Positions 35,431 through 38,336 of a DNA stretch of 64,000 nt are shown here, piece by piece. Source of the stretch: Desulfuromusa sp. (GTDB lineage Bacteria > Desulfobacterota > Desulfuromonadia > Desulfuromonadales > Geopsychrobacteraceae). Numbering within the stretch: position 1 is the first letter of the stretch; each line of letters opens with the position of its first letter. Location of the stretch: positions 13,404 through 77,403 of the forward strand of contig JADGDX010000007.1 in the NCBI GenBank assembly GCA_016744675.1. The letters run 5' to 3'. The notes under the pieces are model-generated. The model was not told the DNA's origin. It saw only the letters and a program-made list of their open reading frames with translations, and did no database searches. The position numbers and the translations under genes were made by a program.

Positions 35431-36351
35431 ATGAGTGCACTTATTATTGAAAATTTGTACAAAAACTTTGATGGTGTTCCGGCTGTTAAAGGGGTCAATT
35501 TTACCATCAAAGAGGGCGAAATCTTTGGTTTGCTTGGTCCAAATGGTGCTGGGAAAAGTACGACGATTAATATGATTGCCGGGGTTGTTCGGCTGGGAGA
35601 AGGGGCAATTACGGCATTCGGGCACGATAATCAGAAAGATTATCGTTATACTCGCCGCCTGTTGGGGGTGGTCCATCAGGAAGTTGTTATCGATAATTTC
35701 TTTACCGTTGATCAAGCTCTTAAGCTTCATGCCGGCTACTATGGTGTCAAAGATGACCCTGTGTGGCGGCAATTGTTGATTGATCGTCTTGGTTTGGAAC
35801 CACACCTCAATAAAGTGATGTTGAAGCTGTCTGGGGGGTTAAAGCGTCGCTTTATGATTGCTAAAGCTCTTATTCATCGGCCTCGATTGTTGATTCTAGA
35901 TGAGCCGACCGCTGGCGTAGATGTTGAGTTGCGGCATGGACTATGGGAATTTGTCAGAGAGATTAATCGTCATGGGACAACAATTTTGCTGACAACACAC
36001 TATCTGGAAGAAGCAGAAGTCATGTGTGATCGTATTGCAATTATGAATCATGGGGAGTTGATTGCTCTGGAAGAGACACAAGAGCTGGTTAGACGTTTGT
36101 CAAACCGACAATTACGCGTGTGGCTGGATCAACCTATACAAAAAATACCTGTCGAATTTGAGCAATATGCCCATCAATTGAAAGAAAATGGAAAGGTTCT
36201 CTTATTGAATTTGCCTGCGGGCGAAGGAGCAGGGAACGTATTATCGCAATTAGCTGATGCGGGCTTAACCGTTCGAGATATTGAAACAGAGCAAAGCGGC
36301 TTGGAAGAGGTCTTTCTTCATCTGACTGGGATTAAAGGGAGGCAGGACTAA
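35431..36351 (+). CDS. ABC transporter ATP-binding protein
   Basis: GLLGPNGAGKST, LSGGLKRRFMIAKAL, LLILDEPTAGVD. Confidence 0.92.
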   Translation: MSALIIENLYKNFDGVPAVKGVNFTIKEGEIFGLLGPNGAGKSTTINMIAGVVRLGEGAITAFGHDNQKDYRYTRRLLGVVHQEVVIDNFFTVDQALKLHAGYYGVKDDPVWRQLLIDRLGLEPHLNKVMLKLSGGLKRRFMIAKALIHRPRLLILDEPTAGVDVELRHGLWEFVREINRHGTTILLTTHYLEEAEVMCDRIAIMNHGELIALEETQELVRRLSNRQLRVWLDQPIQKIPVEFEQYAHQLKENGKVLLLNLPAGEGAGNVLSQLADAGLTVRDIETEQSGLEEVFLHLTGIKGRQD

Positions 36352-37140
36352 GTGGTCGCTGGACAAGATAATAAATATTACCCTTGGCTCCCCTTTTTGA
36401 CGTTGCTGCGTAAGGAGATCTTAAGGTTTTGGCGGGTCTCGACCCAAACGTTGTTGACCCCTATTGTGACAGCGTCACTCTATTTGTTTATTTTTGGTGC
36501 TACTCTGGGGGAGAGACTTAATGTCCTTGAAGGTTTTAGTTATGCTCAATTTGTAATTCCGGGCTTAATTATCATGGGAGTTATCAATAACACCTTTGCC
36601 AATACGTCATCATCCTTGTTTATGTCACGTTATCTTGGAGGTATCGTCGATCTTTTAGTAACACCGGTTAGCCCTCCACAGTTTATCTTGGCGTATACTC
36701 TGGCGGCGATGCTGCGAGGATTATTGGTTGGAACAGTTGTTTGGTTCATTTCCACATTTTTTGCAACGCTTCCTTGGGATTCTCCTTGGTTGGCGATTTT
36801 GATGGCTGTGTTAGCAAGCTTCCTATTCGCCCAATTTGGATTGATCGCAGCGATTTATGCACATAATTTTGACACCCTTTCGATGTACAGTAATTTTCTG
36901 ATCTTGCCTCTGGTTTATCTGGGGGGCGTTTTCTATCCCATTTCAATCCTGCCCGACCCATGGGGCTCTTTTTCGTATTTGAACCCTCTGTTTTATCTCA
37001 TAGATGGCTTCCGGCATGCGATTATTGGTGTCGGTGATACCACCTTTCTCCTCGCTTTTGGGGTCAGTGGTGGCATTGCTGTTGCTTTATTTTTCTGGGC
37101 GGCGTGGTTGATAGGCAAGGGCTATCGGCTGCGAGCATAG
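36352..37140 (+). CDS. ABC-2 type transporter permease
   Basis: Six-TM ABC-2 pattern; coupled to the ATPase gene; GTG start. Confidence 0.88.
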   Translation: MVAGQDNKYYPWLPFLTLLRKEILRFWRVSTQTLLTPIVTASLYLFIFGATLGERLNVLEGFSYAQFVIPGLIIMGVINNTFANTSSSLFMSRYLGGIVDLLVTPVSPPQFILAYTLAAMLRGLLVGTVVWFISTFFATLPWDSPWLAILMAVLASFLFAQFGLIAAIYAHNFDTLSMYSNFLILPLVYLGGVFYPISILPDPWGSFSYLNPLFYLIDGFRHAIIGVGDTTFLLAFGVSGGIAVALFFWAAWLIGKGYRLRA

Positions 37141-37153
37141 AAAGGGAGATGTT

Positions 37154-37435
37154 GTGTTATCTGAGAAAAACCGTAGCGCTTTTAATGCTTTTTACGATGC
37201 TGTCAGGGATGAATCGTCTCTGGACAATAAAACCACTGTTCTGATAGGCCTTGCAGCGGCACTGACCAGTGGTTGCGCTCCCTGAATGGATCACTATCTT
37301 GGCGTGGCCAAGGAGCGGGGCATTACAGAGACTGAAATTGGGGCAGTGCAGGGCATTTGTATGGCGGTTTCGGCGGGGAAAGTTAGCGCACAATTCCGCG
37401 ACGTTGAAACCCTCTATCGAGAACGAAACCGCTGA
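37154..37435 (+). CDS. Selenocysteine-containing carboxymuconolactone decarboxylase/AhpD-like protein (UGA at codon 44 read as Sec)
   Basis: Translated through TGA 37283-37285: MLSEKNRSAFNAFYDAVRDESSLDNKTTVLIGLAAALTSGCAPUMDHYLGVAKERGITETEIGAVQGICMAVSAGKVSAQFRDVETLYRERNR*. CxxU replaces the CxxC of the AhpD/CMD fold. GTG start after GGGAG. Confidence 0.8.
37298..37312 (+). promoter_or_regulatory. Candidate bacterial SECIS hairpin
   Basis: CTTGGC-GTG-GCCAAG, perfect 6-bp stem, loop starts with G, apical loop ~19 nt after the UGA. Confidence 0.65.
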
Positions 37436-37457
37436 TTCGTCAGCTTGGAGTCTATAC

Positions 37458-38336
37458 ATGCATGATCATTTAGTTCGGGTTGTTAGTCCGGATGGATTGT
37501 TTCGAGCAGCCGCTGCCGTGACAACACAGTTAGTAGCGACCATCGTTGAAAAGCAGAAAACAGATTTTACTGCAACTGTAGCGCTGGGTCGGTTATTGAC
37601 GGGGGGAGCCCTGCTGGGCTGTTTACTAAAAGGAAAGCAGCGTCTCGCTTTGTCGGTGGAAGGGAATGGCCCGCTTGGAAAAATGAGTGTCGAGGCGGAT
37701 GCTAAAGGAAGAGTTCGGGGGACAGTTCGTAACCCGATCGCAGGATTGCCACCTGCAGGGGATCATTTTGATGTTGCTGGTGCTGTTGGTAAGGCCGGCT
37801 TTCTCCATGTATGGAAAGATCTTGGTCTGAAAGAGCCCTACCAGAGTATGGTTCAACTTCAAAGCAGTGAAATAGCGGAAGACTTGGCCTGGTACTTAAC
37901 CAGTTCTGAGCAAGTTCCGTCCAGCCTAGGTTTGGGGGTTGAGTTAGGTCGCAAGGGGGATATTGCTATTGCGGGAGGTTTCTTAGTGCAGTCCTTGCCT
38001 CCTGGTGACCCTGAAAAGATAGATGCCCTCACAGAGAGAATCAAAGTTTTGCCACCAACAACCAGTATGTTGGGGGATGGGTTAACGCCTACCGAAATTC
38101 TTGCACAGATTTTTGGTTCTGAGGACTTTCATGTTCAACAAGAGATGCCATTGTCTTTTTCCTGCCCTTGTAGTCGCGAGCAAATCGAGTTGATGTTGAT
38201 AGATCTGGGGAGGAAGGAGCTTCTCTTGCTTATTGAAGAGGAGCCACAGCCGGTTGAAGTTGTTTGTGAATATTGCCGGACCGCCTATGAATTTAATCAT
38301 GAACAAATCAGTGAACTCATGAAACGGGCAAGATAG
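37458..38336 (+). CDS. hslO: Hsp33 family molecular chaperone
   Basis: MHDHLVRVVSPDGLFRAAAAVTTQLV; C-terminal CPCSRE...VVCEYCRTAYEF zinc site. Confidence 0.9.
   Translation: MHDHLVRVVSPDGLFRAAAAVTTQLVATIVEKQKTDFTATVALGRLLTGGALLGCLLKGKQRLALSVEGNGPLGKMSVEADAKGRVRGTVRNPIAGLPPAGDHFDVAGAVGKAGFLHVWKDLGLKEPYQSMVQLQSSEIAEDLAWYLTSSEQVPSSLGLGVELGRKGDIAIAGGFLVQSLPPGDPEKIDALTERIKVLPPTTSMLGDGLTPTEILAQIFGSEDFHVQQEMPLSFSCPCSREQIELMLIDLGRKELLLLIEEEPQPVEVVCEYCRTAYEFNHEQISELMKRAR

Follow-up and report, generated by a model that had tools for sequence, protein, structure and literature searches.

Comparison of homologous genes confirms a predicted selenoprotein gene in the window, the 64,000-nucleotide stretch of Desulfuromusa sp. 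DNA analysed here, at positions 37154-37435, with an in-frame TGA at 37283-37285 that would be decoded as selenocysteine (Sec). We consider it very probable that this is a real selenoprotein gene, that Sec is inserted at UGA 37283 by way of a SelB-dependent hairpin, and that the product is a small CxPU selenol/thiol oxidoreductase. The Sec decoding, the SECIS hairpin, the family and the gene neighbourhoods are established here by comparative sequence analysis. The features of this locus described below lie on the forward strand.

The in-frame TGA and the reading frame around it

The gene comprises 93 codons, with a GTG start at 37154, the Sec codon at residue 44 and a terminal TGA stop at 37433-37435. 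A Shine-Dalgarno-like GGGAG, read off the sequence at 37144-37148, lies 5 nt upstream of the GTG, and similar GGAG sites precede the ATG in many relatives of the gene. A preliminary description of this DNA had joined two half reading frames into one gene by reading through the TGA, with family-like sequence on both flanks and Sec at the second Cys of a CxxC motif, and on each of these points it proved correct, down to the exact coordinates. The read-through protein scores 49 bits against Pfam CMD (PF02627; gathering cut-off 23) in an alignment of residues 9-75, which covers both sides of the TGA, and a six-frame search of the genome returned the same match (1.8e-10) spanning the TGA and flagged as “stops inside: 1 TGA”. 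The Sec codon falls in the motif C41-A-P-U44, and homologues with TGC carry it at this same codon.

Of 277 genomes searched in the class, 65 gave matches, and 56 distinct stand-alone homologues were read. The codon at the Sec position is TGA in 46 of these, the window gene included, TGC in nine and TTA in one, and a sample of the phylum outside the class added nine further homologues with TGA, bringing the total that keep it to 55. TGA and Cys codons are therefore paired at one position between homologous flanks, as is characteristic of selenoprotein genes, and the CxxC and CxxU homologues that the preliminary description had proposed to look for do align across the TGA. True Cys (TGC) homologues would also be compatible with a TGA created by sequencing or assembly error in an ordinary CxxC gene, a reading that can be set aside as vanishingly improbable: all close relatives carry the TGA, it is common to dozens of genomes including that of the isolate Malonomonas rubra DSM 5091, and the Cys homologues lack the conserved hairpin described below.

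In a midpoint-rooted tree of 94 columns with many forks left open, all nine Cys rows group together with support (96/88) beside the Sec rows linked to hgcAB, a grouping that suggests a single Sec-to-Cys change. The TTA (Leu) codon belongs to a gene next to selA (L045:1468-1737) that keeps the SECIS hairpin; either the Sec codon was lost recently there, or the draft genome contains a sequence error. The Sec codon of another locus (L089; genome G124, contig C229, about 1451-1855) carries a short insertion flanked by the direct repeat CAACCGTGA, which looks like a small mobile element that duplicated its target, in a genome with 7% estimated contamination.

Six-frame ORF calling gives a different reading, in which the TGA is an ordinary stop and what remains is a pseudogene, or a 43-aa peptide followed by an upstream extension of hslO. 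As the preliminary description had pointed out, this calling splits the gene and stretches hslO upstream over it; the ORF in question (37269-38336) does exist, but its upstream part is an artefact. Six loci of the same genus without the selenoprotein gene (L116, L118, L120-L123) pass from the ABC permease directly to hslO after 26-39 bp, which places the true start of hslO (Hsp33 redox chaperone, 37458-38336; PF01430 and NF001033 above cut-off) at 37458 and not at 37269. The ordinary-stop reading is extremely unlikely and is refuted by the conservation of the TGA, the frame, the flanking protein and the hairpin across dozens of genomes; in addition, loci without the gene also lack the hslO extension, and dN/dS is low after the TGA. 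Comparison with eight relatives put dN/dS, wherever a value could be obtained, at about 0.05-0.16 both before and after the TGA, although these values are rough because synonymous sites are near saturation.

The genome is equipped to decode the codon. All four sel genes, whose presence the preliminary description had wanted checked, score above their cut-offs: selC (tRNA-Sec) at 69.2 bits (gathering 47), SelA at 589 (cut-off 268), SelB at 355 (cut-off 242) and SelD at 356 (cut-off 125), with selA, selB and selD adjacent on one contig, a different one from that of the window gene. The co-occurrence of selB across the class is uninformative, as 236 of the 277 genomes have it. The selD of this genome (L028, G000:C83:9310-10236) itself contains an in-frame TGA (SSGUAAK) and is probably also a selenoprotein gene.

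The hairpin downstream of the UGA

The core stem CTTGGC-GTG-GCCAAG lies at 37298-37312, beginning 12 nt after the UGA and with G as the first loop base, exactly where the preliminary description had placed a SECIS candidate. An outer U-G pair extends the stem to 7 bp, so that the arms run over 37297-37303 and 37307-37313, the hairpin begins 11 nt after the UGA, and the apical loop GUG (37304-37306) begins 18 nt after it. Published bSECIS rules call for a loop of 3-9 nt with G within its first two positions, a stem of 4-16 bp, a distance of 16-37 nt from the UGA and a minimum free energy of -7.5 kcal/mol or lower (PMC13188914), and the window hairpin, with its GUG loop, 6-7 bp, 18 nt and -7.9 kcal/mol, agrees with all of them. 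The figure of -7.9 kcal/mol is for the stem taken alone, which has a z of -2.1 against shuffles; in a longer fragment of 46 nt, z is only -0.34 and not significant, so the energy by itself is unconvincing and the case is carried by the comparative evidence.

That evidence is extensive. The same 7-bp hairpin stands 11 nt after the TGA in all 46 TGA forms of the class, as CCUUGGC-GUN-GCCAGG with small variations and in a fixed place, and in all eight whose RNA was aligned of the nine TGA homologues from outside it. Across 52 Sec sequences, 98.6% of cells are paired and five of the seven pairs show two-sided compensatory changes, values that no shuffle attains, whereas in slid controls the paired share does not exceed 61%; this covariation backs the SECIS assignment. 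In three loci, pairing is kept even though the encoded peptide LGVA is altered: GGC/GCC becomes AGC/GCT in L084 (LSVA) and GAC/GTC in L138 (LDGV), and a C-G pair becomes U-A in L137 (FGVA). Codon choice follows the same pattern, with Leu49 encoded by CTT or CTC in 46/46 Sec forms, compared with CTG in 7/9 Cys forms and a CTT share of 13% among Leu codons elsewhere in these genes; Gly50 is GGC in 45/46 Sec forms, and the third base of Val51, which lies in the loop, varies freely. The conserved hairpin is missing from the nine Cys homologues, in which the LGVA peptide drifts (LGQV, LPQA, LKQQ). Pairs maintained in an altered protein, the bias at Leu49 and the drift in the Cys forms together argue that this stretch is conserved as RNA, and such conservation inside a coding region is what would be expected of a SECIS element.

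Fold, family and gene neighbourhoods

The preliminary description had called the product AhpD/CMD-like, which stands for the fold and the CxxU motif but not for the canonical Glu/His proton relay, which is missing. An AlphaFold model built on an 8-row alignment (pLDDT 81, pTM 0.60) is all-helical with CxPU at a helix start, and its best Foldseek matches in the PDB are RclX (7y4r), 3bey and other CMD proteins (TM to query 0.66-0.72, probability 1.0, E about 1e-3). The relay of Mycobacterium tuberculosis AhpD consists of Glu118, Cys130, His132, Cys133 and His137 (PMC3141380). In the 56 class homologues, the position of the relay Glu, 12 residues before the first Cys, holds I, A, L, V, T or Y and is aliphatic in most rows, and the position of the relay His, four residues after Sec, is Tyr in every one. 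RclX of Pseudomonas aeruginosa and M. tuberculosis AhpD have the fold and a CxxC at the helix start in common with the window family, which differs from them in having Sec for Cys, and mostly aliphatic residues and Tyr for the relay Glu and His. As these catalytic residues are absent, membership among the AhpD alkylhydroperoxidases was rejected despite the CxPU, and alkylhydroperoxidase activity cannot be assumed.

The subfamily falls below every NCBIfam cut-off. The GSU3128 family (NF041047, “distant AhpD homolog”) is likewise AhpD-related, small and stand-alone with a CxxU, and the window protein reaches 29.1 bits against its cut-off of 110. The nearest models, matched through their C-terminal AhpD domains, are MduS (NF045649; 58.7 bits, cut-off 380) and ArsM_AhpD_UU (NF041537; 51.4 bits, cut-off 510), which are methyltransferase fusions of about 340 aa, whereas the window protein is a stand-alone 93 aa with no methyltransferase part. 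Selenoproteins of this general class were already known, as the preliminary description had stated: CxxU CMD-like or AhpD-like 2 proteins (PF02627) were reported from the Sargasso Sea and GOS surveys onwards (PMC1088965, PMC2398784) and are listed in a review (PMC13188914). Like the window protein, they combine a Pfam CMD domain with Sec in place of the second Cys of CxxC. In the available text of these sources, no selA, hgcAB or hslO context is given for them. The present subfamily may overlap with the catalogued PF02627 CMD-like entry, of which MBW1767730.1 is an example.

In the window, the gene follows an ABC transporter ATPase (35431-36351; PF00005, synteny), which precedes it in what looks like one operon, and an ABC-2 permease (36352-37140; PF01061 and NF011648 above cut-off, synteny) that ends 13 nt before it. 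The preliminary description had seen the novelty in this locus. The ABC-2 exporter and hslO flanks are real, but the arrangement is not unique to the genome: the order ABC ATPase-permease-gene-hslO recurs in 22 loci of the window's family, nearly always with nuoA next. Within the genus, the whole gene is either there or cleanly missing between permease and hslO, which indicates that it comes and goes as a single unit. Most genomes of the genus lack it, so it is not essential. Elsewhere in the window, positions 2745-2781 match the Rfam abiF RNA (RF03085; 42.4 bits, gathering 37).

Relatives in other families keep different company. At 17 loci in two families (L056, L059, L063-L065, L068, L070-L073, L075-L078, L081, L083 and L045), the gene stands 4-46 bp ahead of selA, and selB follows selA wherever the locus extends far enough. 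At nine class loci, in two other families, the order is hgcA-hgcB-gene (L051, L054, L057, L058, L060, L061, L067, L082 and L087), with HgcA (413, cut-off 275) and HgcB (133.7, cut-off 99) both above cut-off in L067; outside the class, L134 follows hgcAB and L131 precedes hgcA. The copies adjacent to hgcAB include both Sec and Cys forms, in two gene orders. A literature search for a link between hgcA and AhpD/CMD proteins turned up no more than a review in which the two appear as separate entries, which is not proof that such a link is unreported. In one f3 locus, the AhpD-like gene and selA are immediately preceded by a Prx-like selenoprotein gene with GVWUPYC (L073:2220-2894), which ORF calling splits at its own TGA. 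A search of the window genome gave no close homologue of this Prx-like protein, the best match being 25% identical and without a TGA.

Proposed chemistry and biological role

In the mechanism we propose, SelB bound to the downstream hairpin would bring Sec-tRNA(Sec) to UGA 37283, yielding a 93-aa all-helical protein of CMD/AhpD type with Cys41-Ala-Pro-Sec44 as a redox pair at a helix start. The protein would most likely be a small, oligomeric selenol/thiol oxidoreductase whose Sec44, as the nucleophile, attacks a substrate of one of three kinds: a peroxide, a thiol or selenothiol in oxidised form, or an adduct of a soft metal(loid). Cys41 would then resolve Sec44 to a selenenylsulfide, which a cellular dithiol would reduce again. 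The low pKa of Sec might stand in for the Glu/His relay needed by Cys-based AhpD, an idea weakened by the Cys forms, which also lack the relay.

Reduction of peroxides or oxidised thiols is taken as the default on account of the fold, the motif, the hslO and Prx neighbours and the precedent of RclX, an AhpD-family protein that shields P. aeruginosa from HOCl (PMC7950407). In the window's family, the gene is probably co-transcribed with the ABC exporter and hslO. The hslO product is an oxidation-activated chaperone, and co-transcription with its gene and the exporter would fit a role in stress response.

The hgcAB and selA neighbours of relatives make a role in metal(loid), mercury or selenium handling the main rival. 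The CxPU motif would then bind or reduce soft metal(loid)s (Hg, As, Se) for HgcAB or for selenium metabolism and not serve peroxide defence, and the window copy would have been captured later into the exporter-hslO operon. We regard this as possible but on balance unlikely. The repeated positions directly after hgcA-hgcB and directly upstream of selA speak for it, as does the fact that the nearest NCBIfam models, MduS and ArsM_AhpD_UU, are selenoproteins in which the matching AhpD domain is joined to a methyltransferase. Neighbourhood is not mechanism, however, selA-selB-selD lie away from the window gene, and hgcA was not found in the window genome, so a role with hgcAB cannot apply there directly. 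The same neighbours suggest, at the level of the family, a metal or selenium role beside or instead of general peroxide defence. A more speculative extension, which we hold only tentatively and think rather doubtful, is that this unmodelled stand-alone CxPU family of Desulfobacterota is an accessory of both HgcAB mercury methylation and SelA/SelB selenium supply, with Sec handling Hg- or Se-thiolate intermediates and the window copy redeployed to export and redox chaperoning.

In total, the analysis removes a recurrent gene-calling error, in which a selenoprotein gene is split and hslO receives a false 5' extension, provides a strongly supported SECIS element with compensatory changes, and delineates a small (seleno)protein family missed by every NCBIfam model at its cut-off. 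Placement immediately ahead of selA-selB points to a possible connection with selenium metabolism, and the repeated adjacency to hgcAB, in Sec and Cys forms and in two orders, offers a testable lead on a methylmercury accessory factor. The conserved neighbours of its relatives may in this way provide a lead on the function of the window protein itself.
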